This document shows, in pieces, positions 7,323 through 22,393 of a stretch of 33,932 bases of DNA. The stretch is from a virus. The stretch lies in the IMG/VR virus record IMGVR_UViG_3300046028_008740, positions 1 through 33,932 of that record; one strand, 5' to 3'. Made by a program: the position numbers and the translations under genes. The notes beneath the pieces were generated by a model. The model did no database searches. It saw nothing but the letters and a program-made list of their open reading frames with translations, and had not been told where the DNA came from. Positions within the stretch are counted from its first letter, which is position 1, and each line of letters begins with the position of its first letter.

Positions 7323-7655
7323 ATGACACCGGGGAATTGGCCGATCACGATCATTCAAGGCCAGACTAAATTGCCTGTGATTACTTGGGTTGATAAGGAT
7401 TTGACCGGTTGCAATGTGCGTTTCCTTGCGAAAAACAGTCCGATCGACGGCGAATACGAGATGAATCTTACAGATGCTAACGGCGGAATTACCTGGGTCG
7501 CGCGAGCTGCGAGCGGGTCATTCCAAATCAATTTAACCTCGACACTTACAAGCAATCTGGCTGAGGGATCCGGTGATCATCTGGTTTGGGTGGATTTTCC
7601 GGACGGTTCGAAATTTCCTTTGCTGGCAGGCTCTTATCAAGTTCGGAAAGGTTGA
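7323..7655 (+). CDS. Unknown small beta protein before the tail fibre
   Basis: The family is not firmly recognised. The 110-residue protein contains no signal peptide or membrane helix and has alternating hydrophobic strands (TIIQGQTKLPVITW, DHLVWVDFPDG, FPLLAGSYQVRKG). This resembles the N-terminal Ig-like attachment domain of baseplate upper proteins in lactococcal-type phages, which hold receptor binding proteins. It is 3 bases upstream of the fibre gene, so a role in attaching the fibre is plausible but unproven. Confidence 0.45.
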   Translation: MTPGNWPITIIQGQTKLPVITWVDKDLTGCNVRFLAKNSPIDGEYEMNLTDANGGITWVARAASGSFQINLTSTLTSNLAEGSGDHLVWVDFPDGSKFPLLAGSYQVRKG

Positions 7656-7658
7656 CCG

Positions 7659-9086
7659 ATGGATGATATTCAAGTTGTAACCATTGGGATTCAGGGGCCT
7701 CCGGGCGTCAGCGGATCATCCGTACCCGCTACAACGACCACACTGGGCGGCGTGATCGTCGGAAACAATCTGACCGTGCTGGCCAACGGGTTGCTTTCAG
7801 CTAATTTTATCGCAACATCCAATTTGCCCTGGGCGAATATCACGGGCAAGCCGACGTTCGCCAATGTCGCTACCAGTGGACTTTATACCGACCTCACTGG
7901 CACGCCTAATCTAAGTGTCTATCTGACAACCACAGCGGCCAGCGCAACTTACGCGCTGATATCGAGCCTTGCAAGCTATTTGACAACGGCCAACGCATCG
8001 ACGACTTACTCCGTCTTGGGTCACACGCACACGATTGCCAACGTGATTAACTTGCAATCGACTCTGGACGGGAAACAACCCAGCGGGTCGTATGTCCTGA
8101 CAAGCAACTCTGCACTGACGGACGCACGCACACCACTCGCACACACGCAGGCGTGGTCAACGATCACCGGCACACCCACATTACTTGGCGCTGGTGGGTA
8201 TGGTATCACCGATGGGCTGACGGCGGCAACGGCGGCATCGACTTACCTCACCTCTGCGGATGCAAACAATGCGTTCGTCCCTAAAACGATCTCTGTCATA
8301 GCCGGCACAGGCTTGACGGGCGGCGGTGCGCTCAATGTGTGTCGCACGCTGACGCTGGCCACAAGCGGTGCCACAGCGGGAACCTACGGATCGGCGACAA
8401 CGGTTCCGCAGGTCACGGTTGACACTTACGGGCGGATCACCGGAGTTACAAATGTCGCCATCACAGCGGGCGGGTCGTACACGCTGCCGATTGCCACGAC
8501 TAGCACTTTGGGCGGTGTCAGGCAAGGATCAGGCGTGGTAATTGATCCTGCGACTGGTATCCTTAGTATCTCCGGTAGTGGTGGTGGCACGGTCACATCC
8601 GTGACGGGCAGCACGGGAATCACGGTTACAGCCTGTACAACGGCACCGGTGGTTTCAATTGATTCGACGGTTGCCACGCTGACGGGCACGCAAACGCTCA
8701 CAAACAAGTCAATTCCCGGCGCGATCATATCCGGTGCATGTCTAACATCAGTGGTCGATTGCAACTCCGCTCCGATCCGTGGTGGAGGAGTGCAAAAGTA
8801 CGCACTTTCAAGCCAATCAACTTACACAGTCATTGAATCATTCTGCGGTGGCGTGATTGATTACGTTGGCTCTTTGGCGATCACGATTACGATCCCGTCA
8901 CTTTCCAGCGGCTGGAACTGTACCTTTATCCAGTCCGGAACGGGGCGGATCACGCTTGTCGGTGGCTCAGGGATCATACTTGTGGCAAGAAACGGCCTGA
9001 AATCAGCGGGACAATACGCCGTAATTGGCGTTCTGGCCACAACCACAGTCGGAACTCTGGTGGTCACGGGAGATACAACCACATGA
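7659..9086 (+). CDS. Tail fibre-like protein with collagen-like start
   Basis: This 475-residue Thr/Ser/Gly-rich protein begins with a short collagen-like run (GIQGPPGVSGSS) and continues in fibre repeats such as LPWANITGKPTFANV, GLYTDLTGTPNL, LTDARTPLAHTQ, GAGGYGITDGLTAATAA and the LTGTQTLTNKSI phrase common in T-even type fibres. No catalytic domain is seen. Such proteins trimerise and bind host receptors. The stop overlaps the start of the next adhesin by 4 bases (ATGA), so the pair is translated together. Its place between neck genes and tail tube is unusual. Confidence 0.8.
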   Translation: MDDIQVVTIGIQGPPGVSGSSVPATTTTLGGVIVGNNLTVLANGLLSANFIATSNLPWANITGKPTFANVATSGLYTDLTGTPNLSVYLTTTAASATYALISSLASYLTTANASTTYSVLGHTHTIANVINLQSTLDGKQPSGSYVLTSNSALTDARTPLAHTQAWSTITGTPTLLGAGGYGITDGLTAATAASTYLTSADANNAFVPKTISVIAGTGLTGGGALNVCRTLTLATSGATAGTYGSATTVPQVTVDTYGRITGVTNVAITAGGSYTLPIATTSTLGGVRQGSGVVIDPATGILSISGSGGGTVTSVTGSTGITVTACTTAPVVSIDSTVATLTGTQTLTNKSIPGAIISGACLTSVVDCNSAPIRGGGVQKYALSSQSTYTVIESFCGGVIDYVGSLAITITIPSLSSGWNCTFIQSGTGRITLVGGSGIILVARNGLKSAGQYAVIGVLATTTVGTLVVTGDTTT

Positions 9087-11236
9087 TTTTCCTCCCATCT
9101 GCCAAATTTTTATATCGCCCACAAACCACCGTCGCTCCGTGGACACCGTTATCACTCACCAACGCCGTGCTTTACGGCTGGTACAAGGCTGACGCTGGCA
9201 TATCCGTATCCACTGACGGCGCAAGTGTTGAAACGTGGGCCGACCAAAGCACCAATAATAACCATCTGGCACAGGCAACAACGGCGAATCAGGGCGTGTT
9301 CCGAACGGGTGCGAACGGTGTCAATGGGCTACCGGTGCTGGAGTTTGCAACATCATCAACGACACCAAGATTCTTTCACAATCCGGACTTCCCCGGCGCT
9401 ACAAACGGACTCAGCTTCTACGTCGTCTCTCGCAATTCGGCTTACAACGCCTCCGCTCTGTACACAGGCGCGTTTGCGATAGGCGATTTATCAAATGGTT
9501 CGATCCAACAATTATGTAATCACCCATCAACTCCAACCACACAACTATTCAGGATTTACGCATCAACCGGGGCCGATTTTGGAGTTGCTGTCACCGGAAC
9601 TAATTTCATGGTCACTAAAGTTTCGCGTGGTACAGGGTTAAATTCAGCAAAAACCCAATCGACTTATTCTACGCTGCAAAACCAGATAGCAGTAAATAGC
9701 GCTGCATTGCAGCCAGGTTTCTGGATCGGCAAGAATTACATCGGCTCCGTTGGCTCCAAGATCGCCGAAGTCATCGTCTGCAATCGCGAACTGACACCGG
9801 ACGAAGAAATCAAGTTAAACACCTACCTACGCAGCCGTTACGGCTTCGACCTAAATTACGGTGCCGACCTTCCCGTTGCAAGCCCTGCCCTCTGGCTCGA
9901 CGCCAGCCGCAGCGACACGCTGTACACCGACAACTTACTGACCACAGCAGCCACAACCGACAATGGGCCGGTGGGTGGGTGGAAGGATCTGAGCGGCAAT
10001 AATCGGCACGCATTGCAAACCGGCACCAATCGGCCAACCTGGCGAACGCCTATCAACGGGCTGAATGGTCTGGGGATGATGAGTTTCAACGGGTCAAGCC
10101 AGTGGTTGGACATTGCGAGTTTCCCGTCTCTGGCTACTGGGTACACGTTTTACGGCGTCATTAAACAACCAACAGCCACAGGAGCGGTGTTGTCGTCCGC
10201 TAGTGCCGGTGTTGACGGTAGCACGGCAGCGATGGTCGCTGGCCCGGCTGGCCCGGCAGTCACTGCGTTTGGCAATGCTCAGATCAGTACGACACAGAGC
10301 AAGTTCCCTGGCGGATCCAGTGCTTATTTCGATGGGGCTACAGGTTATCTGTCGCTGACCGGAAACAGTTCCTTCCAGTTCGGAACGGGCGACTTCACGA
10401 TAGAAGCATGGGTCTACATCTCTGCAAACGCAGCGAACCAGCAGACTATCTTGGATGCCAGAGGGGCAGCTACTGCAACCCCGTTTACATTTGGGTTATA
10501 TCAGTCGAAATTGGCTTTTTATGACGGCACGATGCGGCAGTCGTCCGCAACAATCACAAGTGGTCAGTGGTATCATTTTGCGGCGAGCCGATCTAGTGGA
10601 ACCCTACGGCTATTCATCGACGGAATAAGCTACTACAGTGCCTCCAGCACGACAAATTTCACGACTGGTGCAAACAGCATTTATATTGGCAGAGGATTTG
10701 ATGCGGCGGGATATTACGCAAACGGCTACTTCGATGACATACGCATCTCTAAATTTGCTCGTTACACATCGGCGTTTACTCCATCCGCACTACCGCTCCC
10801 AGATACAGCGGCAACCGACCCCTACTTCGCCCAAACCTCGCTGCTCTTGCACATGGACGGGGCGAACGGTTCAACCGTATTCACCGACTCCTCAAACAAT
10901 GTCGGCACAGGCATCACGCAAGGAGGTAAATCGCTAGCCCAGCCAGTTCCCTCAGGCACAGTGGTCGGGGTGATTGGCAACTACGATGGGACGCACACGG
11001 CTGGAAATTACTTTGTCAAGACATCAAGTTCTGCGGCAAATGCGACCGGGGTAATGACGCAAGCTGCATCCACGCCAGCCACGGGCACAGCAGCAATCGG
11101 ACGACTGACGAACGCAACAGCATACTTCAATTCGCAAATATATGAGCTGGTCGTTTTGCCACGCCAGTCAAACAGTACCGAAGATCAAGCATGGAAGACC
11201 TACACAGCCGCGAAATGGGGGGTCACCTGGTCATGA
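9083..11236 (+). CDS. Large adhesin with LamG/concanavalin-like modules
   Basis: This 717-residue protein is built from repeated modules. Two related segments (about residues 20-230 and 260-380) share WYKAD/WLDAS, then ETWADQSTNNNHL or GGWKDLSGNNRHAL, and NGVNGLPVLEF or NGLNGLGMMSF. A clear LamG-like jellyroll follows (about 400-560) with YFDGATGYLSL, FTIEAWVYI, FTFGLYQSKLAFYDG, WYHFAASRS and IYIGRGF. These folds bind glycans or proteins. There is no signal peptide, as expected for a virion protein. It is likely the receptor-binding protein partnered with the upstream fibre. Confidence 0.75.
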   Translation: MIFLPSAKFLYRPQTTVAPWTPLSLTNAVLYGWYKADAGISVSTDGASVETWADQSTNNNHLAQATTANQGVFRTGANGVNGLPVLEFATSSTTPRFFHNPDFPGATNGLSFYVVSRNSAYNASALYTGAFAIGDLSNGSIQQLCNHPSTPTTQLFRIYASTGADFGVAVTGTNFMVTKVSRGTGLNSAKTQSTYSTLQNQIAVNSAALQPGFWIGKNYIGSVGSKIAEVIVCNRELTPDEEIKLNTYLRSRYGFDLNYGADLPVASPALWLDASRSDTLYTDNLLTTAATTDNGPVGGWKDLSGNNRHALQTGTNRPTWRTPINGLNGLGMMSFNGSSQWLDIASFPSLATGYTFYGVIKQPTATGAVLSSASAGVDGSTAAMVAGPAGPAVTAFGNAQISTTQSKFPGGSSAYFDGATGYLSLTGNSSFQFGTGDFTIEAWVYISANAANQQTILDARGAATATPFTFGLYQSKLAFYDGTMRQSSATITSGQWYHFAASRSSGTLRLFIDGISYYSASSTTNFTTGANSIYIGRGFDAAGYYANGYFDDIRISKFARYTSAFTPSALPLPDTAATDPYFAQTSLLLHMDGANGSTVFTDSSNNVGTGITQGGKSLAQPVPSGTVVGVIGNYDGTHTAGNYFVKTSSSAANATGVMTQAASTPATGTAAIGRLTNATAYFNSQIYELVVLPRQSNSTEDQAWKTYTAAKWGVTWS

Positions 11237-11652
11237 CTCAGATCCCCCTTCGCATCTATTTCGCCGTCCTCCCAGCCAATCGCCAAACATTCGCTGATTG
11301 CTTGTCAGGCAACCTCTCAGAAGCGTCAATCCGGCTAAAAGAAATTGCAACTGGCGACGAGTGGTGGGGTTCAAACGGCGGCTTATATTACCAGTCTCCG
11401 AATGAAATCAACCGAACATGTCTGAATCAGGCTCAGGCGTGGTTTTTGGCGATCGGATTTCAAACCGATATCGGAGTTGATAGCAATAACGAACCGATCA
11501 CGATTGCATTTCCTGCCGGAATCATCGTTGATGGCAACGCACCAATCACCGTGCCAGGCAGTCCAGATCCCGGCTTTGATGCGTTCATCTTGGCATGTGG
11601 ATTGGAATTGTGGACAGACACACCAGCACCACCAAACGGGAACGGCACATGA
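11233..11652 (+). CDS. Unknown late protein in the adhesin region
   Basis: I do not recognise this 139-residue protein. The start at 11233 is chosen because its ATG overlaps the stop of the adhesin (ATGA). It is acidic, with EIATGDEWWGSNGGLYY in the middle and a Pro/Gly-rich tail, and has no membrane segment. Tight coupling to the adhesin suggests a small assembly factor or accessory virion subunit. Confidence 0.6.
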   Translation: MTQIPLRIYFAVLPANRQTFADCLSGNLSEASIRLKEIATGDEWWGSNGGLYYQSPNEINRTCLNQAQAWFLAIGFQTDIGVDSNNEPITIAFPAGIIVDGNAPITVPGSPDPGFDAFILACGLELWTDTPAPPNGNGT

Positions 11653-11864
11653 TCGAGCCTGAACTACCGAACCACTTTCGCAATTGCCTTTTATCCCTGC
11701 TGAAGCTCCATGATCTGCAATTGGCTGGAAACGATGATTCCAGCGATGCCGAAACGGTTCGTGCGGCTCTTGATCTCGAATGGCCTCTTTTGTCCATGCG
11801 AGAGCAAGCGGCCTGGATCGAATTATCCGATCTTTTACCGACTCAGAAAGCGATATCCAAATGA
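11649..11864 (+). CDS. Unknown small protein
   Basis: This short acidic, mostly helical protein has 71 residues, with Leu-rich helices (LLSLLKLHDLQLAG, MREQAAWIELSDLL). It overlaps its neighbours on both sides through ATGA junctions, so it belongs to the same translated chain as the adhesin and the nuclease. No function can be assigned. Confidence 0.6.
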   Translation: MIEPELPNHFRNCLLSLLKLHDLQLAGNDDSSDAETVRAALDLEWPLLSMREQAAWIELSDLLPTQKAISK

Positions 11865-12220
11865 TCTTAGTTCCCGAGGTTACTTACACTTACAACGCAT
11901 TCGTCATTCGCGTTGTCGATGGCGATACAGCCGAGCTTGACGTTGACCTTGGTTTCGACGTCCATTTTCGGATCTCCGTGCGTTTCAAAGGCTACAACGC
12001 GCCCGAAATGCGGGGCCCAAACAAGGCCGATGGCCAGTTGGCGAAAGATGAATTGACTCAGCTTTTGACGGGTCATTCGATCATCATTAAAACCGATAAG
12101 CTCCATTCTCAAAGTTTCGCGAGATATCTTGCGACGGTTTTTGTCGGCACCGCTGACGGCTGGGTCTCCGTTGCCGATCACATGATTGGCAAGGGTTTCA
12201 ATGTCAAACAGGGCTTGTGA
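11861..12220 (+). CDS. Staphylococcal nuclease-like (SNase/thermonuclease) protein
   Basis: This 119-residue OB-fold nuclease keeps the main active-site residues: VVDGDT with D20 and D22, R41 and E49 in RFKGYNAPEMRG, and R88 in FARYLAT, corresponding to the metal and phosphate ligands of staphylococcal nuclease. It has no signal peptide. The start ATG overlaps the upstream stop. Being a late gene, it may degrade host DNA during lysis or act on packaged DNA; the role is inferred. A strong hairpin follows 8 bases after the stop. Confidence 0.8.
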   Translation: MILVPEVTYTYNAFVIRVVDGDTAELDVDLGFDVHFRISVRFKGYNAPEMRGPNKADGQLAKDELTQLLTGHSIIIKTDKLHSQSFARYLATVFVGTADGWVSVADHMIGKGFNVKQGL

Positions 12221-12227
12221 ATGAGGC

Positions 12228-12255
12228 ATGTTCCCGAAACGGATTTCGGGAACAT
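12228..12255 (+). terminator. Perfect 12-bp hairpin after the nuclease gene
   Basis: The arms atgttcccgaaa (12228-12239) and tttcgggaacat (12244-12255) pair without a mismatch around a 4-base loop cgga. The downstream bases are not U-rich, so it is either a weak or Rho-assisted terminator, a processing site or an RNA-stability element. It stands between the adhesin/nuclease block and the membrane-protein block. Confidence 0.5.
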
Positions 12256-12346
12256 CCTGATTCAGATACCTAATTAAGCGGCCTTCGGATTGGGTTCGAT
12301 GGTTCTCAATGAACCTTATTCGGACTCTCTTTTTGGAGGCTTTGGC

Positions 12347-12547
12347 GTGAATCTGCTCAATCAAATCAATCGCAAGCAAGCGTTCGCGACTCTCATGACG
12401 GCTCTATTGGTGGGTGGGGCTGCAAGTATCACAGCTCTTGCCGCAGATCTACCGAAGTACGTGGACGTTTCCGGCCCGCTTGGCGCGGCTCTGTTGGCGG
12501 CTCTGTTTTACGCTCGCGCTGCCCTCAATTCGGGCTCTGATAAATGA
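12347..12547 (+). CDS. Small two-helix membrane protein, holin candidate
   Basis: The product has 66 residues from the GTG at 12347, preceded by TTGGAGG. It has two hydrophobic helices (about residues 12-32, AFATLMTALLVGGAASITALA, and 41-56, GPLGAALLAALFYARAAL) and a short charged tail. This is the size and build of a class II holin. It precedes a second small membrane protein by a 4-base overlap and lies in the same block as a peptidase, which supports a lysis role, but many small phage membrane proteins look alike. Confidence 0.55.
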   Translation: MNLLNQINRKQAFATLMTALLVGGAASITALAADLPKYVDVSGPLGAALLAALFYARAALNSGSDK

Positions 12548-12816
12548 TGGTCGATCCTGAATCCATTTTCCGTGATTTCGGAGTTCTCACAGCGTCACTC
12601 TATTTCGGATCTTCCGGTTGTACACTCGCGCTAGTCGCGAACCAACCGGAGGAAACGGCTGTGATTACTCTGATAAAAATCATCCCTGCCATGTTCACGG
12701 CTTTCGTGGGCGTGTTGCAGGTGATTTACACGATCAAAATCAAGCGGGAAAAATTGGCCGTCGAACGCGAGCTGCGTTTGGAGCGGCTCCAACGTCAATT
12801 TCCTGATCCTGATTAA
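12544..12816 (+). CDS. Small membrane protein with charged C-terminal helix, holin/antiholin candidate
   Basis: This is a 90-residue protein. It has two hydrophobic segments (about 12-33 and 41-66, including TLIKIIPAMFTAFVGVLQV) followed by a highly charged helix rich in Lys, Arg and Glu. The start overlaps the preceding stop (ATGA); an ATG three bases later is equally possible. Pairing with the preceding small membrane protein suggests a holin-antiholin pair or an inner spanin-like protein. No family is recognised. Confidence 0.55.
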   Translation: MMVDPESIFRDFGVLTASLYFGSSGCTLALVANQPEETAVITLIKIIPAMFTAFVGVLQVIYTIKIKREKLAVERELRLERLQRQFPDPD

Positions 12817-12828
12817 ATGGGAGTTCCC

Positions 12829-13089
12829 ATGTCCGATCCAGTCGATGATTTACCTGAGGCTCCAAAGTTTGTTGGGATGGGGCTGGCATGGCTAATCTTT
12901 TGGCCGATTTTCCAACTTTTAGCCAGGCGGCTGATTCGCAACTTGGTCCCGTATTTTCTGGATAAGCTGCGCCAAGAGCTGACAACCGGCCTCCCAGCGA
13001 GCGTTTCGGACTCCGAAATTTCCGCGCTCGTCAATAATCAACACGACAATTTAAAGGGGGCGTACCATGTCCGATACCTTGCCGATTGA
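12829..13089 (+). CDS. Small single-span membrane protein
   Basis: The product has 86 residues from the ATG at 12829, which has GGGAG 5 bases upstream; an ATG at 12817 lies directly after the previous stop. One hydrophobic helix is seen at about residues 16-32 (FVGMGLAWLIFWPIFQLL), then a basic stretch and an amphipathic C-terminus. Function is unknown; the neighbourhood suggests lysis or membrane control. Confidence 0.5.
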   Translation: MSDPVDDLPEAPKFVGMGLAWLIFWPIFQLLARRLIRNLVPYFLDKLRQELTTGLPASVSDSEISALVNNQHDNLKGAYHVRYLAD

Positions 13090-13243
13090 TCCGGAAGTTC
13101 AAGCGTCGATTGACGATATTGCCAATTTGGTACAAACCAAAGTTGATGCGGCTAAAACCGAAGTCAAGGCCGAATCTGAAGCTGTGAAAAAGCAGGAGAC
13201 ACTGGCCATTTTGGCTAATCTCAAAAGTCGGCTCACTCCTTAA
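13067..13243 (+). CDS. Small acidic coiled-coil protein
   Basis: This short gene encodes 58 residues and overlaps the end of the previous gene by 23 bases in another frame. It begins ATG at 13067 with a strong AAAGGGGG just upstream and ends with TAA. The product starts MSDTLPIDPEVQASIDDI and is almost entirely helical with Lys/Glu/Ala heptad-like spacing, without membrane segment. The good ribosome binding site and protein-like composition support it as a real gene. Function is unknown. Confidence 0.55.
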   Translation: MSDTLPIDPEVQASIDDIANLVQTKVDAAKTEVKAESEAVKKQETLAILANLKSRLTP

Positions 13244-13274
13244 ATTCGCCATCGTTTTGGCTGCCGGGTGGATC

Positions 13275-13808
13275 ATGCGAAAGCCTGTTTTTGCGCTGCT
13301 GTCACTCCTGTTGGCCTCAGGTCCGATTCCGGATCCTACCGTCGATCCGATTCTGCCGATGGTCGCTCACACTATTCCACCATCGTCCGAAGCCTCGTGG
13401 GGTTTTGGCGATGGCGGATCGTTTTTTTTGGTAGGCAAAACCACGGGCATCGTCACCATTGTTCGAACCGGCGAATCGGCCCAGGTCGAACCGGATCGAA
13501 AACCGCCTCCGAAGCCAACACCGGTGGCCGAGTTCAAACCGGTCGCCGCGTTCCTTTTTTTCGACTCGAAAAATTTCACCGTCGCGCAAGCCACAATCAA
13601 AAACGATGTATCGTTGCGAGAAGCGGCAAGCCGTTTGGGCGTGCCACTTTATTCGGTATTTTCGGACGAAGCGGAATTTGCCGGTCCAACTTGGCAATCG
13701 GCCATCGGTCAAACGGGGACTCCGTGCCTGGTGCTTTTGGATAAGGCAAACAAGCCGAAAACCGTGAAAATTCAAACCGTCGCGGATGTTTTGGAGGCTC
13801 TCAAATGA
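13275..13808 (+). CDS. Exported protein with thioredoxin-like C-terminus
   Basis: This 177-residue protein starts at the ATG at 13275 with a signal peptide-like N-terminus (MRKPVFALLSLLLASG). A Pro/Lys-rich linker (near residues 75-90) precedes a domain of about 80 residues with an alpha/beta pattern and GTPCLVLLDKANKP, which resembles the cis-Pro strand region of thioredoxin-like folds; no CxxC motif is present. The stop overlaps the start of the papain-like peptidase by 4 bases, so the two products probably act together outside the membrane, for example at lysis. Confidence 0.5.
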   Translation: MRKPVFALLSLLLASGPIPDPTVDPILPMVAHTIPPSSEASWGFGDGGSFFLVGKTTGIVTIVRTGESAQVEPDRKPPPKPTPVAEFKPVAAFLFFDSKNFTVAQATIKNDVSLREAASRLGVPLYSVFSDEAEFAGPTWQSAIGQTGTPCLVLLDKANKPKTVKIQTVADVLEALK

Positions 13809-14632
13809 ACTGGGACGATTTGGAGCCTGACCGGATCATTCTGCCTGACGACGCGCCGGATGGGATTTTGCGAAAATTAGTGTCGTATCAAACTGAATCC
13901 GCTTTGATGCGTGGTTATACCCCTGATTTCGAGATCCCTGACGTTCCGGAATCGGACTGGCGGGAATTCGAATATTCGACCACTTTGGACACTGTTGAAG
14001 ATCAGGGCGATATCGGAGCCTGTAACGGTTTTGGGGCTTCGGGCGCGGAGTGGTGGGTTCGCTGGCTTGCCGGGCTGGGCACCCAACGGCTTTCGCCCTG
14101 GTTCGTCTATGCGATTTTGTGCCAAGGTCGCGATGTCGGATCAAGCCCATACGCGGCTTTGGAACTGCTCAAGACCTTGGGGACATGCTCATTCGATCGT
14201 GTTCCGATCGGCCTGATTAATCCTCGAAATCTGACTCAGGGAGCCTATGACGATGCCCTCCGGTTTCGGGTCCAGCGTGGGCCTCATATTTCCGGCTTTC
14301 GCCAATTGATGAGTGCCACACAACTCGGATTCGTCGTCAACGGCACACTCCATGCCGACAACGGGATTTATACGCTCGATCGATTTGGTGTCAGTCAAAA
14401 TCGTCCGGGGGTCCATAATCACGCGATTGTCAAAGGTCTGGGGGCGAAACGACTTCCGGACGGTCGATGGGCCGTGAAGTACAAAAACTCTTGGGGCCGA
14501 AAGTTTGGGCTTGAAGGGTACGCTTGGGGAACAGAGGCCACTTTCGAAGGTTCTTATGCGGAGGAATTTGCCGTTGCCTCGGCCTCTTTTGATCCGCGAA
14601 CCTACACACCGCCAGTTCGATTGGCGATTTGA
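13805..14632 (+). CDS. Papain-like (C1A-type) cysteine peptidase, possible proteolytic lysin
   Basis: In this 275-residue protein the C1 catalytic residues can be placed: oxyanion Gln Q67 and nucleophile C73 in VEDQGDIGACNGF, His H206 in GVHNHAIVKGLG, and Asn N228 in YKNSWGRKFGLEGYAW. The order and spacing are those of papain. No signal peptide or propeptide inhibitor domain is obvious in the first 60 residues. It lies behind holin-like genes and an exported protein, and no amidase, muramidase or other classic endolysin is seen in the window. A lysin acting on a protein-rich envelope is therefore a reasonable hypothesis; processing of virion proteins is the alternative. Confidence 0.8.
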   Translation: MNWDDLEPDRIILPDDAPDGILRKLVSYQTESALMRGYTPDFEIPDVPESDWREFEYSTTLDTVEDQGDIGACNGFGASGAEWWVRWLAGLGTQRLSPWFVYAILCQGRDVGSSPYAALELLKTLGTCSFDRVPIGLINPRNLTQGAYDDALRFRVQRGPHISGFRQLMSATQLGFVVNGTLHADNGIYTLDRFGVSQNRPGVHNHAIVKGLGAKRLPDGRWAVKYKNSWGRKFGLEGYAWGTEATFEGSYAEEFAVASASFDPRTYTPPVRLAI

Positions 14633-14655
14633 TCCCTCTCCAAAGGAGTTTCAAC

Positions 14656-14919
14656 ATGATTCCATTTCTGATTGCTGCCAGTTTGATTGGGCAATGCCCA
14701 GGCGGAACTTGTCCGCTTCCTGTTCAAGTCCTTTCCGCACCGCAGTTTGTCTACTTTGTGCAACCCCCAGCGAAGGAGGTGAGAGTGACAGAAACGACGA
14801 AGACCACGATCGTATTTGTGCAAACTCAAAACCGTAAGGCCGGACTGTTTCGGAGGGGGGTGATCCTACCATTGTTTGCGAACGGATCCGGCCAGGCTTG
14901 TTTGGGATCGTGCCGCTGA
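14656..14919 (+). CDS. Small exported protein after the peptidase
   Basis: This 87-residue protein starts at an ATG with AAAGGAG 7 bases upstream. It has a hydrophobic N-terminus (MIPFLIAASLIGQCPGG) suggesting export by signal peptidase I; a lipobox is not convincing. Four Cys residues occur, two near the start and two near the end (SGQACLGSCR). It may be an outer spanin-like or envelope-acting protein of the lysis block, but no family is recognised. Confidence 0.5.
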   Translation: MIPFLIAASLIGQCPGGTCPLPVQVLSAPQFVYFVQPPAKEVRVTETTKTTIVFVQTQNRKAGLFRRGVILPLFANGSGQACLGSCR

Positions 14920-14948
14920 TTTGGTCGTTTGGTGCCTTGGGAGAGGGG

Positions 14949-14986
14949 CCGGGCCACCGTTGCGAAACTGGGGGCCCGGTCTTTTT
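14949..14986 (+). terminator. Intrinsic terminator between lysis-like block and tail genes
   Basis: The GC arms ccgggcc (14949-14955) and ggcccgg (14973-14979) pair perfectly and are followed by tctttttcc (T-run 14982-14986). This would reduce read-through from adhesin/lysis genes into the tail genes. No clear promoter is visible just after it, so partial termination is likely. Confidence 0.65.
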
Positions 14987-15001
14987 CCATTTTTAAGGAG
15001 C

Positions 15002-15421
15002 TTGAAAATCGATATTCAAACCTTGGTTTATCAAAGATGGTTGATGTGTGTCGAGACGCCCTTGAAAGTGCCTTTGACCACCTATTTGACACCTACCGGA
15101 ATCGTTCCACCGTATGCAACGGCGGAATATGTCACCAAACAAATCCCGATGGGCCGGGGCCGATCATTGCAGGAACATACCCTGAAAATCACGGTTTATT
15201 CACCCGATGAACGTGTGATCCAATCCGTCTTTGTGGCATGTGGGCTGGATTCGACAGTTCCGATAGGATTCCACCGCGCCGAAATTGGTGATGACACGGT
15301 TAAAGCAGTCTCTCAGATCACTGAAGCCGGGCTGCCAAAAATCGAGCTTGATCCACCATTGGGCGGCGGGAAATGCTACTCGCGAGTGCTGATCATTCGA
15401 ATTCGAACTGGGAGCAAGTGA
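15002..15421 (+). CDS. Probable tail completion protein
   Basis: The product has 139 residues if it starts at the TTG at 15002. AAGGAG ends one base before that TTG, which is too close, so the ATG at 15044 (125 residues) or a rare start codon is possible. The pattern PPYATAEYVTKQIP followed by EHTLKITVYSPDE resembles DUF3168-like tail completion proteins, where a PxYV strand is followed by HTL.I.V.S. It stands just before the tail tube gene, the usual place. Family identity is inferred. Confidence 0.55.
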   Translation: MKIDIQTLVYQRWLMCVETPLKVPLTTYLTPTGIVPPYATAEYVTKQIPMGRGRSLQEHTLKITVYSPDERVIQSVFVACGLDSTVPIGFHRAEIGDDTVKAVSQITEAGLPKIELDPPLGGGKCYSRVLIIRIRTGSK

Positions 15422-15425
15422 TAAA

Positions 15426-15812
15426 ATGCCTGACCTGAATTATATCGACGGATCTTCGGGAACGATGAAAGTCGGGACGGTCGAATATTCCGTCGAAAGT
15501 TGGAACGCCAAACTCGAAGCCGGGATGAACGCTTACACCGCCTCGAAAAACGGCGGCTGGGCTGTGCACCGCAAGTCATTCAAGAAAATGACGGGCTCAG
15601 CGACAATTTTATATGAGTCCGACGTAGGCTGTTATGCCTCCGGCCCGATTCCGGGTAATACCGTCACATTGACGCTTATTGCTGCCAACACTTCGAATTT
15701 CACAGGAAATTTCGTGATTGGCGAATCCGATTTCAAGTGGGATCCATCTGGCGTCGCCAAGATTGATATTTCCTTTGGGAACAGTGGACCGATTACCACA
15801 CTCCCATCTTGA
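15426..15812 (+). CDS. Major tail tube protein (putative)
   Basis: This is a 128-residue beta-rich protein. VGTVEYSVESWNAKLEAGM near the start, TGSATILYESDV in the middle and FKWDPSGVAKIDISFGNSG near the end follow the layout of small siphovirus tube proteins, whose last strands form the inner barrel. It comes directly before the tail assembly chaperone, as tube genes do. No contractile sheath gene is present nearby, so the tail should be non-contractile. Confidence 0.7.
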   Translation: MPDLNYIDGSSGTMKVGTVEYSVESWNAKLEAGMNAYTASKNGGWAVHRKSFKKMTGSATILYESDVGCYASGPIPGNTVTLTLIAANTSNFTGNFVIGESDFKWDPSGVAKIDISFGNSGPITTLPS

Positions 15813-15900
15813 TCCATGGATCATGATCGTTCTAGCGCTGGATTGACTGGTTTCCAGTTTGTCCAGCGTACTTTTAAAACCTCTCTCCAAAGGCAATCTC

Positions 15901-16392
15901 ATGACAAGCGGCAACCCAGTTTTAGTCACGGTATTTCCGAGCCCTCGCGAAGTCCTTTTTGCGGGGCAAGTGATCCGTGTTGGAAAACTCAAGCAACGGC
16001 AAAAGGCCGATATTCAAGCGTTTTTGGATAATTTGCCCGAGCCTAACGAACGGGTCGAAGCAGGTCTAAAAGCGGATGCCAAATTGCGGGGCTACAACTA
16101 TGTTTGGCCTCTCTCGATTGACAAGATTGCTGTGCTGCTCGATTTGGATTATCAGTCCAGATACACGTTCTTGAGGATTGCAATCAAGCCCCACAATCTC
16201 GGTTTGAGCGACGATCAGATTAACGAGTTGGTGGACAATTGCGACTCCGACGATGAAGTCCTGGACGTCCTGTTCGCGGCCTTTGGAGTTGAACCGGCTG
16301 CCGTGAAAGCGTTGGCCGATCCGGTTTCGGAGACTTCAAGCCCAAAAAAAGACGATCCGGCGGGGCCACTCTCGACTGGGCCCGGATCTTGA
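15901..16392 (+). CDS. Tail assembly chaperone, short (G-like) product
   Basis: The product has 163 residues from the ATG at 15901; a TTG 14 codons upstream is less likely. Its place between tail tube and tape measure, the acidic helical C-terminal half and the overlapping second frame identify it as the G-type chaperone that keeps the tape measure protein soluble while the tube forms. The in-frame codons CCA AAA AAA near the end form a slippery site (16344-16350). Ribosomes that do not slip end at 16392 after 13 further codons. Confidence 0.78.
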   Translation: MTSGNPVLVTVFPSPREVLFAGQVIRVGKLKQRQKADIQAFLDNLPEPNERVEAGLKADAKLRGYNYVWPLSIDKIAVLLDLDYQSRYTFLRIAIKPHNLGLSDDQINELVDNCDSDDEVLDVLFAAFGVEPAAVKALADPVSETSSPKKDDPAGPLSTGPGS

Positions 16393-16625
16393 TTGACGTT
16401 CAGAAATCGACTCACTGGTCATTGAGCGAGCTGGCTGATCTGGATGACGATCAGCTTTTGTTCTTCTGGACGGCCGGGAAATCGGTCTCAATCAAACGGC
16501 CTGAAATCTCGTCTGGTTTGACCATGAAAATCGATCGGAAATTGAGCTGGGCCGAGAACATTGAAAAATTCGAAGCTGCAAAGCGTGATCATGAGGAGTT
16601 GAAACACCGTGGGCAAAATCGCTGA
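15901..16625 (+). CDS. Tail assembly chaperone, frameshifted (GT-like) product
   Basis: A -1 slip on A AAA AAA (16344-16350) joins the first 150 residues to 91 residues read from 16350 to 16625, about 241 in total. The -1 frame is open across the junction and gives RRSGGATLDWARILIDVQ and then an acidic helical T domain (STHWSLSELADLDDDQLLFFW). The T part has no good independent start: only a TTG at 16389 without a ribosome binding site. In lambda and many siphoviruses the GT fusion binds the tape measure protein, which here begins at 16609, inside the end of T. Confidence 0.72.
16344..16388 (+). promoter_or_regulatory. Programmed -1 frameshift signal (slippery heptamer plus hairpin)
   Basis: The heptamer A AAA AAA in the correct phase is followed, after 3 bases, by gatccgg (16354-16360) that pairs perfectly with ccggatc (16382-16388). 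A 5-bp core of that stem would leave a spacer of 5 bases, close to the usual 5-9. The GC-rich loop has further pairing potential (ggcc at 16364-16367 and 16379-16382, which would compete with the outer stem). Confidence 0.7.
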
Positions 16626-18471
16626 AGCCTTTGTTGAAATTGGTGGTCGCGATTCTGCGTTTCGGGAGTCGGTGCAAAAGCTCGAATCGATCATGCAACC
16701 GCTTGGCCGAAACGCTGAAGGATTTGCCAGGGCGATGGATTCGGCGGCGGATCATTCGGGAGGCGTGTTTTCATCGGTACTTTCTGGCGCGGCCACGGCT
16801 CTGCGTGCTTACACGACGGTCATGCTGGCGAATCGCGCTTACACGATTGCATCGAAATTTTCGGGTACAATCAATCCGTTTGCGGGCGTTAAAATCAGCG
16901 CGATTTCCGTGTTGTCGTCAGCATTTAGCGGGCTGACTTCCAAGTTCGGTCTGGCTGCCGTGAGTTTGCTTGCGGTGGCGGCGGCGGCGGCCATTGCGGT
17001 GGCGGCGTTTGCTTTGATTGCCGTGGGTGTTGGTAAGGCGTCGGACTTGGCTGAACAGGTCGATTTCTCGAAAATCGTCATGGGCGATGTCGGTTTTGAC
17101 CAGGCTAGTAAAGCGGCTAGCGCCCTCTCCAATCAATTCGGAATTCTCAGAAAAGATACCCTCAACGTCGCAACCACTTCTGCATCCATGGCCAAAAACC
17201 TTGGATTTACGAAAGAAGAAGCGACGGGATTGGGTATCAGCGTGGCTCAGTTGGCCACCGATTTAAGCAGTGCCTCAAACACCTCGTTTCCGCAGGCGGC
17301 GGGCGCGATTCAATCACTGTTTCGCGGTGAATCCGATCCGATCGAACGATTTGGAGTTACGATCACCGAGGCGGCGGTTGAAGCCGAGGCACTCAGTTCC
17401 GGCCTGGCTAAATCGAAAGATCAAATTGACGCGACGGTCAAGTTTCAGGCTCGTTGGAATCTGCTGATCAAGCAAACGGCCGACTCTCAAGGAAATCTGA
17501 ATAAAACCGCGTCGAGTTTCGCGAACGTGATGAGGAACGTCAAAGGGCAAGGGCAAGAGGCTCTGACGACTATTGGGGAATCGTTCATGCCTTTGGCCGG
17601 AATCTTTGCCCGCGTGGCTCTGGCGGGGATGACATTTGTTCGCCGGATGGCTGAAGGTTTTGATCTTTTGATGACACCTGTGAAGTATTTGGCCAACCAG
17701 GTCAATATGCTCTCTGATTCGCTCATGGGTATGGTGGGGATCGATCCCAAGAAATTCAGCCTGTTTACCGGTGATCCAGTCAAAGACGAAGCCAAAAAGG
17801 TCAAACGATTTACCGAAGAATTGGCTGCGGAGAAGATGAAAAAGGCAGCGGATTTAGCCGATTTCGAGTTGAAGAAAAAGCACGGTTTGCTGACCGACGC
17901 TGACAAGGAAAAAGCCGGTCAAGCTGGGCAGGAAGAACTCCGAAAAAAACAACAGGAAACTGAAACGGCTGCCAAGCGGATGACGGATTTGCAGGAGCGA
18001 GAAGCGGATTTGATCGAGAAAAAGAAGGAAAAAGAAGAAGATTACGCCAAGGCGATGAACAAGACTTATGACGAGCACCTGAAAAAACAGGCGGAACTCG
18101 AAGCAACGTTCGAACGCGAACGGCAACGAAAGGCTGAAGACGCGGCTATTGATGCCAAGCGGCGTCAAGAGGATCGGAACGCCTCATTTAATTTAAAGAG
18201 TGGTGGCGAAACGGCTGATATGCTCTTTACGGCGGCCATGGATCAGGGCCGCGAAGACAAGCGGAGCAGAGAAGACGCTGTTCTTGACGAGCAACGAAAA
18301 CGGGGTGACATGGCGCGAGAGATCGAGGATTCCAGAAAGGCTGCCGAGGAAAAACGCGCCGAACTAAATGACGAAAAGGCGTTGACGGATGACGGGATGG
18401 CGAAAGAGATTGACAAGGTGGTTGTGGAGCTCAAAAAAATCTACTCGAAATTTGACATGAGGATGGCTTAA
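16609..18471 (+). CDS. Tape measure protein
   Basis: The product has 620 residues from a GTG at 16609. It opens with IAEAFVEIGGRDSAFRESV, as tape measure proteins often do, has a hydrophobic Ala-rich segment at about residues 107-143 (probably membrane-penetrating at infection), and a long charged coiled-coil C-terminal half rich in Glu, Lys and Arg. From the usual 0.15 nm per residue, the tail would be about 90-95 nm. It overlaps the chaperone T frame by 17 bases. No peptidoglycan hydrolase motif is seen in it. Confidence 0.88.
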   Translation: MGKIAEAFVEIGGRDSAFRESVQKLESIMQPLGRNAEGFARAMDSAADHSGGVFSSVLSGAATALRAYTTVMLANRAYTIASKFSGTINPFAGVKISAISVLSSAFSGLTSKFGLAAVSLLAVAAAAAIAVAAFALIAVGVGKASDLAEQVDFSKIVMGDVGFDQASKAASALSNQFGILRKDTLNVATTSASMAKNLGFTKEEATGLGISVAQLATDLSSASNTSFPQAAGAIQSLFRGESDPIERFGVTITEAAVEAEALSSGLAKSKDQIDATVKFQARWNLLIKQTADSQGNLNKTASSFANVMRNVKGQGQEALTTIGESFMPLAGIFARVALAGMTFVRRMAEGFDLLMTPVKYLANQVNMLSDSLMGMVGIDPKKFSLFTGDPVKDEAKKVKRFTEELAAEKMKKAADLADFELKKKHGLLTDADKEKAGQAGQEELRKKQQETETAAKRMTDLQEREADLIEKKKEKEEDYAKAMNKTYDEHLKKQAELEATFERERQRKAEDAAIDAKRRQEDRNASFNLKSGGETADMLFTAAMDQGREDKRSREDAVLDEQRKRGDMAREIEDSRKAAEEKRAELNDEKALTDDGMAKEIDKVVVELKKIYSKFDMRMA

Positions 18472-18474
18472 ATC

Positions 18475-19302
18475 ATGCCTGTACCGGCTGCGACTTGGAA
18501 ATATGTGTTTGATTCAGCGCCTGAAGTCACCGGCAGCGGCGGCACTATGACGGCCTCGGCTCTTTTTGAAATTGCCATTGGAGACCGCAACGAATTTATC
18601 AATTCGGCTTGTGGTTTAACCAGCGGCGGCGGCGGCTGGCCACTGCCTCAGATTCCATGGGATTGTCCGTTTCAGCCTGCTTCGGGTCTATTGTGCAGCG
18701 GTTTTAAGTGGGTTCCGTTTGGGCTTCGCAACTCGATTTCAGCGTCTGACAACACCGTCGATGGGCACTACGAATTTGCTCACGTTACGCTGAATTTTGA
18801 GCGTCCGAAATACGATTACCAATCACCATCGCCTCAAAATCAGATTGACACGAGTCAACCGATTTTGTTCTGCGAACAGACGATCGAGACACATACAAGA
18901 ACTGTGACGGTGCCTGGCTACGAACTTGAATACGTTGGCGCACCGGCCACGGAAAAGCCTGTGGGCCCGGTTGTCAAATTTGCGGTTCAAGCTGACTATG
19001 TGCTGAACTTCCCGTTTGTACCTTATATTCCGTGGAACTTTTTGGAGCCATATCACGAATCTGTGAACGATCGCGTTTTATTCGGAAAAGCCAAAGGAAC
19101 GATTCGATTCTCAGGCGCGAGCATTAAAAATGAAGTGCAGTCAAACGGTGTGACGCGAACAAGTTGCGTCTTGAAAATGAGCTATAACGCGATAGGCTGG
19201 AATAAGCAGATGGCGACGAACGGACTGATCTATGAATTGAAGATCAAAAACAGTTCTGATCGCATTTACAAATACGCCAATCTTGCAGCGATTTGGAGCT
19301 AA
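18475..19302 (+). CDS. Probable distal tail / minor tail protein
   Basis: This 275-residue protein belongs to no recognised family. Its position right after the tape measure suggests the distal tail (Dit-like) protein. The body is beta-rich and aromatic (YKWVPFGLRNSIS-like stretches, FNFPFVPYIPWNFLEPY region), with six Cys. No membrane segment. It is separated from the tape measure by 3 bases and from the next gene by 3 bases, so all three are one operon. Confidence 0.6.
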   Translation: MPVPAATWKYVFDSAPEVTGSGGTMTASALFEIAIGDRNEFINSACGLTSGGGGWPLPQIPWDCPFQPASGLLCSGFKWVPFGLRNSISASDNTVDGHYEFAHVTLNFERPKYDYQSPSPQNQIDTSQPILFCEQTIETHTRTVTVPGYELEYVGAPATEKPVGPVVKFAVQADYVLNFPFVPYIPWNFLEPYHESVNDRVLFGKAKGTIRFSGASIKNEVQSNGVTRTSCVLKMSYNAIGWNKQMATNGLIYELKIKNSSDRIYKYANLAAIWS

Positions 19303-19305
19303 CAC

Positions 19306-20616
19306 ATGAGAGAAGTCATAAAAAAAGGCGACGATATTCGCTCGATCCGCAAGCCGATAAACAAACTGGCGGAGTCTTTCCCACAAGCGTTTTGGGTGGA
19401 GAATGGAACGTCAACTTGCGATGACGGTAGTATTTCGATCACGGTTGACAGGGATGAAAAGCAGTGGATCAAACTGACCAGCAAGTTGGCTGGAACTCCG
19501 ATCAAATACGCTTGGAAAATGGTCAATCACGATCGAACTACGGACGCCTGGACGGATTCTGTTGTGACTGGCGACACTGTGGCGGACTGGGCGGAGGAAT
19601 TAAATAACGCGGATTTGGCCGTTGGTACGGACACTCGGTATTTAGCGCGATTGCATCCACAATCGGGCCGGTGGATTATTGAGACGGGCGGTGGTGGTAC
19701 GAACACCAAGACCCAAAGCAATCCGATAATCATGCTTTTAGGACCGTGGGCAGACTACAAGGACTGCCCAGGTGTACCTGCCAAACCGCCGACATTTACG
19801 GCCAACGGGACTGACTTTTGCGCCCCGCCTTACGCTTGGGCCGCCTACGATGTTTGTAATTACAAATATGTCAAGAAATTCGATATGCGGGACTTTGGAC
19901 ACTGGGCCACCGAGCTTAATGGAGGTTCCGCAACAGCGTTTCGAAGGCTCTACAACGCCTATTATGGCAACTCTACAGAGAGCGCAAACCTGACAGCCAA
20001 CACGCCCACAAGTTGCAAGGGCGTTCGTTTCTTGGGGTACTCGTCTCAAGCCTCTTTGGTCTGTACTTGCCCTTCTTGGATGACTCCGGTTAAGTGTTTA
20101 ATGCTTAAATTCAAGACGATCCCGAGGCCATGTGCAGCACCTTCCAATTGCGGTTATTCTTGCGGGTCCACCTTCCTTCAAATGGACGAATTCGACATGT
20201 GGGATAAAGAATATACAGTGCAACTCTGTTCTACCATCAGTTGCTTTTTTGGCGGGAATGTCGGCAGCACTCCGTGGACGGTTGACTTGCAATTCCTTTC
20301 AGCATACACCGCTGACCAGTGCTTTTGGGGGCCGGATATCATCGACCCTTGCAACCCGTGTGATGGGTTCGGCAAGTTTACTCTAGGGATTTTATCCGGA
20401 ATCCAAGCCTCCGATTGCGGTGGTGCGGGCATCATCACATCGACAATCACCGATATCGAAATGAAAGATCTGGTCACGAACTGCGTGGCGAAAAAGCCGA
20501 CCAACATCAAGCTCTGCAATAATTGCCAAAACGTAGGCGTTCCGATCCACTTTATCCTACCGGAAACTGTCGAGCTGTCCTGCTGTGTACCGAAAAATAC
20601 TGGCACTTGCCCATGA
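19306..20616 (+). CDS. Cysteine-rich tail protein
   Basis: This 436-residue protein has 23 Cys, almost all after residue 150, many as pairs (CTC, CNPC, CNNC, CC). The first 130 residues contain a beta domain without Cys apart from one (TSTCDDGS). Tail-tip position after the probable distal tail protein suggests a hub or tip subunit. Such Cys density implies bound metal or disulfides formed outside the cell. No family is recognised. Its stop overlaps the start of another Cys-rich gene. Confidence 0.6.
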   Translation: MREVIKKGDDIRSIRKPINKLAESFPQAFWVENGTSTCDDGSISITVDRDEKQWIKLTSKLAGTPIKYAWKMVNHDRTTDAWTDSVVTGDTVADWAEELNNADLAVGTDTRYLARLHPQSGRWIIETGGGGTNTKTQSNPIIMLLGPWADYKDCPGVPAKPPTFTANGTDFCAPPYAWAAYDVCNYKYVKKFDMRDFGHWATELNGGSATAFRRLYNAYYGNSTESANLTANTPTSCKGVRFLGYSSQASLVCTCPSWMTPVKCLMLKFKTIPRPCAAPSNCGYSCGSTFLQMDEFDMWDKEYTVQLCSTISCFFGGNVGSTPWTVDLQFLSAYTADQCFWGPDIIDPCNPCDGFGKFTLGILSGIQASDCGGAGIITSTITDIEMKDLVTNCVAKKPTNIKLCNNCQNVGVPIHFILPETVELSCCVPKNTGTCP

Positions 20617-20942
20617 TTTGCCAATGCCAATCACCCGGTCACTGCCCAATTCGCGGCGTAGCCACAACCGAAGCGATGGTGTCGGTATGCGTCCCATATC
20701 AACCGTTGCCTTGGGAGCTGACGCCAGCTCCGGTCACTCAGTCACAAGTGATTGGTAAGACCTGCCGAGCTTGCATCAACCGTGGCGAGCCTGTGATAGC
20801 GGCCAATGGTCGGCAAGTTGGTTCCGAGGGCTGCGGATGTACTTCCCAAAGTATTGCCTCCGGTGTCCTTTGGTGGACTTGCAATATTCGATCTTTGCCC
20901 GTGCGTGAAGATCGGGCCGAAACTTGCGAAAACTACTCTTGA
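20613..20942 (+). CDS. Small cysteine-rich tail-region protein
   Basis: This is a 109-residue protein with 10 Cys, arranged as CQC, HC, VC, TCRAC, GCGC, TC and TC. The ATG at 20613 overlaps the stop of the preceding Cys-rich gene (ATGA). The CxxC and CxC pairs would suit two zinc sites or disulfides. It may be an assembly partner or extension of the upstream tip protein. Function is unknown. Confidence 0.6.
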   Translation: MICQCQSPGHCPIRGVATTEAMVSVCVPYQPLPWELTPAPVTQSQVIGKTCRACINRGEPVIAANGRQVGSEGCGCTSQSIASGVLWWTCNIRSLPVREDRAETCENYS

Positions 20943-20958
20943 ACAAGGAATTCCGAAA

Positions 20959-21411
20959 ATGCCTCTGAACAGTTCTTCCGTGTCGTCGATCGTCTCGATA
21001 TCGTGCAGTCGAACCACTGCGAGCGGATCGATCGTGACGGCTTCGACACAATTTCAGGACACGCCACTTTTTAACAACGGATCCGCCACCGTTTTGACGG
21101 CGGCTCACTGTGTCGATATCAATCTTGTGGCCAACGCGACGGCATTGGTTTTGGCCAATCTCACGACGACATTGACCGAAACGGTGACTCCAACGGCGCT
21201 GAAATACTTGCGAATTTCGAGCGCTGAGGGGAATTCGAACTTGACGGTGACGGCCTCGGTTTTAGGGCTGAGCGCGTTCCCGATTCAGCCAGGCGGGAAA
21301 TTCGAATGGCTCACACCTACAGCCAACGGCCTGGCACTGACGGGAAATCAGACTTTGTTGGCTAATGGGACGGCGAACCAGACTTTGCGAGTGACGATGC
21401 TGGTCAATTGA
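20959..21411 (+). CDS. Last gene of the late operon, probable virion protein
   Basis: The product has 150 residues from an ATG with AAGGA 9 bases upstream. It is rich in Thr, Ser, Asn and Ala with repeated beta-strand phrases (SGSIVTASTQF, ATALVLANLTTTLTETV, GNQTLLANGTANQTLRV), similar in composition to phage structural proteins such as decoration or tip-associated proteins. No signal peptide. A bidirectional terminator follows immediately. Family unknown. Confidence 0.55.
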   Translation: MPLNSSSVSSIVSISCSRTTASGSIVTASTQFQDTPLFNNGSATVLTAAHCVDINLVANATALVLANLTTTLTETVTPTALKYLRISSAEGNSNLTVTASVLGLSAFPIQPGGKFEWLTPTANGLALTGNQTLLANGTANQTLRVTMLVN

Positions 21412-21414
21412 TGC

Positions 21415-21453
21415 AAAAAAAAGCCCGGCGAAACACTTGTTTTCGTCGGGTTT
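21415..21453. terminator. Bidirectional terminator between convergent operons
   Basis: The stem cccggcgaaa (21424-21433) / tttcgtcggg (21441-21450) has ten pairs including one G-U, with a short loop. On the minus strand it is followed by eight U residues (A-run 21415-21422), a strong intrinsic terminator for the leftward operon. On the plus strand only three T follow, so it is weaker for the late operon. Confidence 0.85.
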
Positions 21454-21477
21454 GGATATTGTTCTGAGAATGCCGAA

Positions 21478-21751
21478 TCAGCGTTTCGACTGGGTTTTCA
21501 TCAGGGCTAGAACACGATTGCTTTTGACTTTTTTGAGCGAAGATAACACTTTGAATTGTTGCGACTGGATTTTGACGTAGGGATTCTCAAACGGTGTGCC
21601 GGTCCTTGGATGTAGGCAGATCACGCCATTTTTTTTCGATATTTTCCGACGCTTCCACATAGGCTTTCAAGGCGTTTGCATACGCCTCGATTTCGATGTC
21701 TCGACACATCGGATTATCTCTTTTCAGTTCCGCAGTGATATCCATCATCAT
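21478..21751 (-). pseudogene. Small-terminase-like (P27 family) gene broken by a frameshift in a homopolymer
   Basis: Read leftward, a frame starting at ATG 21751 gives 54 residues and stops at 21587. The continuation in another frame (to 21478) gives ICLHPRTGTPFENPYVKIQ and a basic C-terminus. Joined at the run of eight A (21629-21636) as if it had seven, the protein reads AYVEASENIEKNGVICL...TGTPFENPYV, the pattern of P27-type small terminases. So either the gene is inactive or the run length is a sequencing or assembly error; the shift needed (+1) does not fit ordinary -1 slippage. Its start overlaps the stop of the PLD-like gene. Location on the leftward operon, far from terL, is unusual. 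Confidence 0.6.
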
Positions 21752-22371: not shown

Positions 22372-22393
22372 TGGATTGGCCTTTGGTTGGTGA

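Follow-up and report, generated by a model that had tools for sequence, protein, structure and literature searches.

A papain-type peptidase and its exported partner

The window analysed here is the whole 33,932-nucleotide stretch of IMG/VR virus record IMGVR_UViG_3300046028_008740. It is a fragment that begins inside a terminase gene, and it encodes the terminase C-terminus, a portal, a MuF-like protein, an S78 protease, a capsid protein, a tape-measure-like protein, an integrase and RecE/RecT-like proteins; it is part of a temperate tailed phage. Between the fibre-like and tail genes, after small membrane proteins and an exported protein, lies a (+) strand gene for a papain-like peptidase at 13805–14632, with an ATG at 13805 and a stop codon ending at 14632. 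The product is 275 aa long, has three cysteines (residues 73, 106 and 128), and its N-terminus is not hydrophobic. The initial annotation had assigned it a catalytic set of Q67, C73, H206 and N228, and this assignment was correct. The four residues are invariant, in the order Gln-Cys-His-Asn, in all 16 alignment rows, and they are kept in every relative ORF that covers all four columns (64/64, 19/19 and 79/79, with coverage by 64 of 65, 19 of 21 and 79 of 80 ORFs in sets that overlap partly, the first two sharing records).

Pfam family PF00112 matched the window protein right at the cut-off (20.7 bits, E 4.8e-4) and is clear in relatives (E 1e-11 in L018, E 3.7e-9 in L026). An AF2 model built from 16 sequences showed the papain fold with a pTM of 0.80 and pLDDT below 50 at residues 1–32 and 271–275. 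Its best PDB match was xylellain (3ois_A; Z 22.7, rmsd 3.2, 231 residues aligned, 17% identity), which Foldseek matched at E 1e-11. The C1A-fold matches in BFVD include entries called 'Peptidoglycan binding-like' and 'N acetylmuramidase (Fragment)', a description that goes by entry name only. In three pairs of sequences the peptidase had dN/dS values of 0.155, 0.15 and 0.116, and the gene is under purifying selection. We conclude that 13805–14632 is a real gene for a C1A (papain-type) peptidase.

The enzyme shares the fold, the Gln-Cys-His-Asn set and an NSW motif with C1A peptidases of the papain/xylellain type (PF00112), and differs from them in its three cysteines, its cytoplasmic start, its constant exported partner and the lack of a recognised propeptide domain, as PF00112 was the sole Pfam family reported at E ≤ 1. 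An I29-type inhibitory propeptide is common in C1A peptidases without being defining. The CHAP, NlpC/P60 and C39 domains of endolysins also have a papain-like fold, and they likewise bring cysteine peptidase logic to lysis; unlike these, the window enzyme is C1A by sequence, and a search for CHAP matched none of 17 records.

The partner gene, 13257–13808 (+) with a likely Met start at 13275, encodes a hydrophobic N-terminus, a Pro-rich linker and a C-terminal thioredoxin-fold domain. Its stop codon overlaps the peptidase start by 4 bases (ATGA, 13805–13808), in agreement with the coupling to an exported protein first described for this locus. The C-terminal domain has the element order of the thioredoxin fold and matched thioredoxin best (Z 8.6, rmsd 3.7, 83 residues aligned), with ERp27 at Z 8.5 (rmsd 2.6, 84 aligned). 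We rejected a redox thioredoxin as its identity, since CxxC is missing from all 11 alignment rows; the partner shares the fold of thioredoxins and ERp27 and differs from them in this respect, in being exported and in carrying the domain on a Pro-rich linker. A dN/dS of 0.486 for the partner derived from an ungapped comparison and was set aside.

The pairing of the two genes extends well beyond the window. No record of the phage collection held a match to the partner. A partner profile matched 20 of 24 records, the window included; the four that it missed are G007 and G023, whose papain genes are cut by contig ends, and G008 and G009, which are distant forms (L011 and L013). A reciprocal scan of viral contigs with the partner gave 67 loci, 56 of them new and many near-identical to each other. 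A papain gene lies downstream of the partner in 54/54 new loci with sequence left, the other two ending too soon. The 4-base overlap recurs in 47 of these 54; six have the papain start 481–1171 bases further along, and the last has a papain truncated where the contig stops. When papains were clustered at 90% identity, those from the papain and the partner scans made up 16 of the 89 representatives, and the 16 group together in a tree with support 0.972, where the group is labelled by scan of origin and not by a checked partner for each sequence. No feature of the locus is more informative than this constant exported partner, whose constancy lay beyond the view of the initial annotation. At L020:9246–9899, a methyltransferase-like gene, recognised by reading its translation, lies between partner and papain.

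The module around the pair

One relative from the viral contig scans is L001, a 38-kb contig, at 97% identity. Further relatives share 37–43% identity (L004–L006, L017–L026 and the fragment L029) or 27–33% (L007–L010, L014, L027 and L028, with L008 and L014 on one contig). The latter include huge-phage contigs, a group to which the 595-kb LR756511 also belongs, and L011, L012 and L013 are distant relatives. LR756511 has a second C1A-like gene at 449310–450011 (−), matched by the L013 and L011 proteins and not by the window protein. Downstream of the papain in L003, L007 and L014 (and in part L009) are genes for exported CxxCH proteins (haem c type) of ~620 and 240–300 aa and for an amphipathic repeat protein, all beside the partner-papain pair.

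Three small (+) strand genes precede the partner in the window. The first, 12290–12547, encodes a small membrane protein that is holin-like by size and position only (homologue L005_8475, E 2e-11). The second, 12544–12816, encodes a small membrane protein whose C-terminal tail is charged and which is holin-like only in size and topology (Kyte-Doolittle value 2.21; homologue L023_8556, E 1e-5), and the third, 12817–13089, a small membrane or amphipathic protein (homologue L018_5660, E 2e-11). Each product has one hydrophobic segment, scored as 19 residues with a Kyte-Doolittle value ≥ 1.6, so that the three small membrane proteins originally noted upstream were borne out. The 12290 protein has no PHROG match and the 12544 protein no PHROG holin match, and the small membrane proteins fit no holin family.

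Upstream of these, at 11780–12220 (+), is an endonuclease-like gene (phrog_452, E 1.9e-23) with a homologue of 53% identity in L157 (E 2.5e-38), which we take to be of the staphylococcal-nuclease type. Between the fibre-like genes and the module, 11191–11652 (+) encodes a 153-aa protein that ends in PPNGNGT; it has 9 C-terminal residues in common with L018_3919 (E 0.005), and proteins with similar ends occur at the same place in relatives. On the other side of the peptidase gene, 14629–14919 (+; Met at 14656) encodes a small exported protein with CPGGTC after a hydrophobic start. It matches L005_8975 weakly (E 0.006) and may correspond to the Cys-rich exported protein that relatives encode upstream of the partner. 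L005 also has counterparts of the partner (E 1e-12) and of the papain (E 1e-60).

We counted these neighbours by phmmer at the 36 loci with more than 2.6 kb of upstream sequence, which are partly redundant. With the window's proteins as queries, the 12290 gene was matched at 35 loci, the nuclease at 16, the 12544 and 12817 genes at 8 each, the 11191 gene at 5 and the 14656 gene at none. L157 queries matched the Cys-rich exported gene at all 36 loci, a fibre-associated gene at 31, an amphipathic gene at 28, the nuclease at 9 and two membrane genes at 1 and 7. Together, window (8) and L157 (28) queries find the 12817 gene at 36/36 loci. By blastp (E ≤ 0.5), the nuclease, partner and papain are the only window genes with a direct match to their L157 counterparts. 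The search for the same gene order in related phages thus returned a nearly constant first membrane gene upstream of a constant pair, with the other small genes being variable members of a common plan.

The sequence downstream of the module varies, as read from translations: tail genes follow in the window, MuF, S78 and capsid genes in L004, a P22-like coat gene in L018 and L020, an HK97-like capsid gene in L023 and L157, and a terminase gene in L026, whose papain gene is followed by one for a 93-aa protein with a single membrane segment. The module is a portable unit whose neighbours change and whose company is kept, as in lysis cassettes; other portable units would do likewise.

The peptidase gene sits among structural genes, downstream of the fibre-like ones, which would suit a virion protein that processes head or tail proteins or rides in the particle for entry. 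We consider such a role very unlikely, as the window encodes an S78 prohead protease of its own (one of 69 representatives in one Pfam scan was of the S78 family) and the module, by the translations read, is not fixed in position with respect to head and tail genes. In the available text on phage XacN1, moreover, a C1 family peptidase is named among potential lytic enzymes and is not among the lytic enzymes named as packed in virions (PMC5852040).

Wall enzymes and C1A peptidases in other phages

The initial annotation had recognised no muramidase, amidase or transglycosylase in the window. Pfam on the larger ORFs and six-frame searches with seven families agreed, finding no classic peptidoglycan hydrolase there. 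We considered and rejected a lysozyme at 22877–23635 (−), which has a weak Pesticin match (E 0.014, residues 181–241) and for which a family search matched neither of two records (the window and L001) at E ≤ 1.

The six-frame searches covered 17 records, namely 15 module-bearing records (the window included) and the two partner-less records, G008 and G009; five partner-bearing records of the huge-phage group (G005, G006, G010, G021 and G022) were left out. Amidase_2, Phage_lysozyme, SLT, CHAP and M23 were matched in none of the 17, and M15_3 and Hydrolase_2 in one each, G008 and G009 respectively, which were the sole two matches. All seven classic peptidoglycan-hydrolase families therefore scored 0/15 in the module-bearing records searched, which are mostly fragments, several of them near-identical. 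Two of them, G019 and G020, carry an exact 123-base repeat at their ends, of a kind found in none of the other records, and are for this reason probably complete genomes.

A broader Pfam survey of 149 protein representatives from 12 records, in which 25 and 21 families were listed, also revealed no wall hydrolase. The representatives and the papain (150 of 155 chosen, five ORFs having been dropped by hand as likely spurious) came from 269 clusters of 515 ORFs of ≥75 aa. Outside this set are 104 single-record clusters of 75–139 aa, and 10 window proteins were Pfam-scanned earlier than it. Family searches of this kind may overlook a wall enzyme that is small or of a new type.

C1A peptidases are found in other phages, and a tblastn search with the distant L013 protein matched 32 phage records, Prevotella Lak phages among them. 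We examined the gene contexts in THSA-485A, GMA2, Aleemily, BillNye, FLC9 and GX15bay. In Gordonia phage GMA2 the papain is annotated 'putative lysin' and lies between lysins and a 'putative holin', and in Gordonia phage Aleemily a gene labelled 'cysteine protease' is flanked by a holin on one side and, across one small gene, by an amidase lysin on the other; the same label is used in three further Gordonia phages. These distant C1A homologues adjoin lysins and a holin, and, unlike the module-bearing records searched, GMA2 (by Pfam) and Aleemily (by annotation) additionally own an amidase and a C39 lysin. The Gordonia phages have a small gene upstream of the papain; we rejected a relationship to the thioredoxin-fold partner, as blastp gave no match at E ≤ 1. 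In Thermoanaerobacterium phage THSA-485A the C1A peptidase is directly downstream of a GH25 muramidase with PG_binding_1, so that the preceding gene is that lysin and not an exported partner. The C1A gene of Streptomyces phage BillNye adjoins a terminase, and the contexts in FLC9 and GX15bay were uninformative.

In a wider scan of viral contigs we confirmed at least 447 C1A relatives and kept 80. Detection of wall enzymes with single local references marked just 4 of the 80 broad loci; it was too insensitive and was replaced by family searches. Amidase_2 was present in 7 of 50 records from these loci and M15_3 in 0/50. In six of the seven amidase-bearing records no more than 2 kb separates the amidase from the papain (gaps of 235–1924 bases; the seventh is 6353 bases away), for which random placement of the amidase gave P 7.9e-6, with the 2-kb limit having been set after the gaps were seen. 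At other limits the counts were 3/7 at 1 kb (P 0.0075) and 6/7 at 3 kb (P 5.5e-5). Small membrane neighbours were modestly enriched in the broad set (21/74 versus 54/336, P 0.019). C1A peptidases thus turn up repeatedly in lysis regions, where those of the cultured cassette phages have a classic lysin for a neighbour.

In PMC9671378, on Gordonia lysis cassettes, the terms 'papain' and 'cysteine protease' are absent from the main text. The main text of PMC7162821, on huge phages, does not use 'planctomycet-' or 'papain'. Among the matches listed from open-licence full texts there was no paper on a papain-type endolysin, which is no proof of absence.

A proposed role in lysis

On balance, we favour the view that the C1A peptidase belongs to the lysis module of this phage as its envelope-cutting enzyme and stands in there for a classic endolysin. 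Gene order, not activity, supports its description as probably a lysis-region peptidase in an endolysin's place. It may be understood most economically as a peptidase of lysis regions that elsewhere is a companion of classic lysins and here, with an acquired partner, is the sole visible envelope enzyme. This much of the initial annotation's endolysin reading stood, through the conserved module, the C1A genes in cultured lysis cassettes and the 0/15 result for the seven families; its proposal that the enzyme opens a planctomycete protein wall by proteolysis was not supported.

The peptidase would be made and folded in the cytoplasm, its sequence having no signal sequence, and would escape once the small membrane proteins have made the inner membrane leaky. 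In the periplasm it would meet the constant exported partner, which its hydrophobic N-terminus would anchor or secrete and to which its Pro-rich linker would give reach. The CxxC-less thioredoxin-fold domain of the partner may then dock, protect or activate the peptidase, which would cut the peptide bonds that hold the envelope together, slightly more likely those of peptidoglycan peptides than those of envelope proteins. We infer holin function, release, docking and the target of the peptidase alike, and sequence cannot separate the two kinds of target.

Several observations weigh against a sole lysis enzyme. Where cultured phages have the papain in a lysis cassette, a classic hydrolase is present too, and the papain may therefore normally be an accessory; holin family matches are lacking for the small membrane proteins; the BillNye gene is beside a terminase; and in the huge-phage group the pair is followed by the CxxCH exported proteins and nothing lysis-like. 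An accessory lysis enzyme with its partner could loosen outer-membrane or S-layer proteins, serve a spanin-like role, or clear debris for virion dispersal, perhaps with the nuclease of the module, and peptidoglycan would then be left to host autolysins or to a phage enzyme that escaped recognition. We regard this as possible and somewhat unlikely. Such a role would fit the papains beside an amidase or GH25 in the Gordonia and Thermoanaerobacterium phages, the M15_3 or Hydrolase_2 match in each of G008 and G009, the amidases within 2 kb in six of the seven amidase-bearing records, and a nuclease-like gene in the module at 16/36 loci. Against it stand the 0/15 module-bearing records with any of the seven classic families, two of these records being probably complete, and the 149 representatives with none. 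The conservation of the small module genes is weaker when counted with the window's own proteins than when pooled with the L157 queries, and because of this we hold the lysis-enzyme reading with slightly less confidence and the accessory one with slightly more.

The N-terminus of the peptidase would also suit an intracellular or envelope effector unconnected with lysis, which would degrade host defence or receptor proteins during takeover or to exclude superinfection. The partner would then direct its trafficking or inhibit it. Pairs of peptidase and regulator do occur: on plasmid NZ_CP085450 (L066), a gene for a C1 family peptidase is followed directly by one annotated as an I42 family protease inhibitor, and in huge phages, which carry the partner-papain pair too, its surroundings do not resemble a lysis region. 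We nonetheless judge an effector improbable given the location of the gene among structural genes, the membrane gene upstream at 35/36 loci and the distant relatives in lysis cassettes.

The planctomycete host suggested by the initial annotation was not supported. No relative turned up among 84,980 species genomes in two pattern scans, and neither the partner nor the 22877 protein had a plasmid match. The capsid protein had distant matches only, to phages of mixed hosts (131 records, all below 60% identity). A protein-rich wall as the target is likewise outdated as a premise for planctomycetes, which, according to the available text of PMC4432640, possess lysozyme-sensitive peptidoglycan sacculi. 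Nor was proteolysis as the lysis chemistry supported, as C1A peptidases elsewhere accompany peptidoglycan enzymes and could cut peptidoglycan peptides.

A bolder form of the lysis-enzyme reading, which we find doubtful, is that this phage family lyses its hosts with the C1A peptidase as the sole envelope enzyme, which would cut load-bearing envelope proteins and not peptidoglycan after docking on the constant exported CxxC-less thioredoxin-fold partner, while the nuclease of some modules would help to dismantle the cell contents. The peptidase family and its occasional annotation in phage lysis regions were already known; added here are the constant two-gene unit and the lack of a recognised endolysin beside it. 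Lysis genes in phages of uncultured hosts are easily overlooked if annotation seeks few peptidoglycan-hydrolase families, and the C1A peptidase with its constant exported partner is the only visible lysis candidate in this phage group. C1A peptidases are common in viral contigs and lie near amidases where amidases occur. If our favoured reading is true, the pair would represent a new class of lysis enzyme, provide a two-gene marker with which to find it, and make it possible to ask if a bacterial envelope can be opened by cutting proteins.

Some further features of the window stood out. A DNA methyltransferase gene at 1650–2399 overlaps the end of the portal gene, and 1715–2388 has no counterpart in L001, which is otherwise about 95% identical. 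At 21748–22371 (−), on the strand opposite to the structural genes, is a gene for an endonuclease-like protein (phrog_16945, E 3.9e-29). The fibre-like region at 7651–11232 is strongly diverged between the window and L001, and the neighbouring 11232–22649, which includes the module, is 94% identical.
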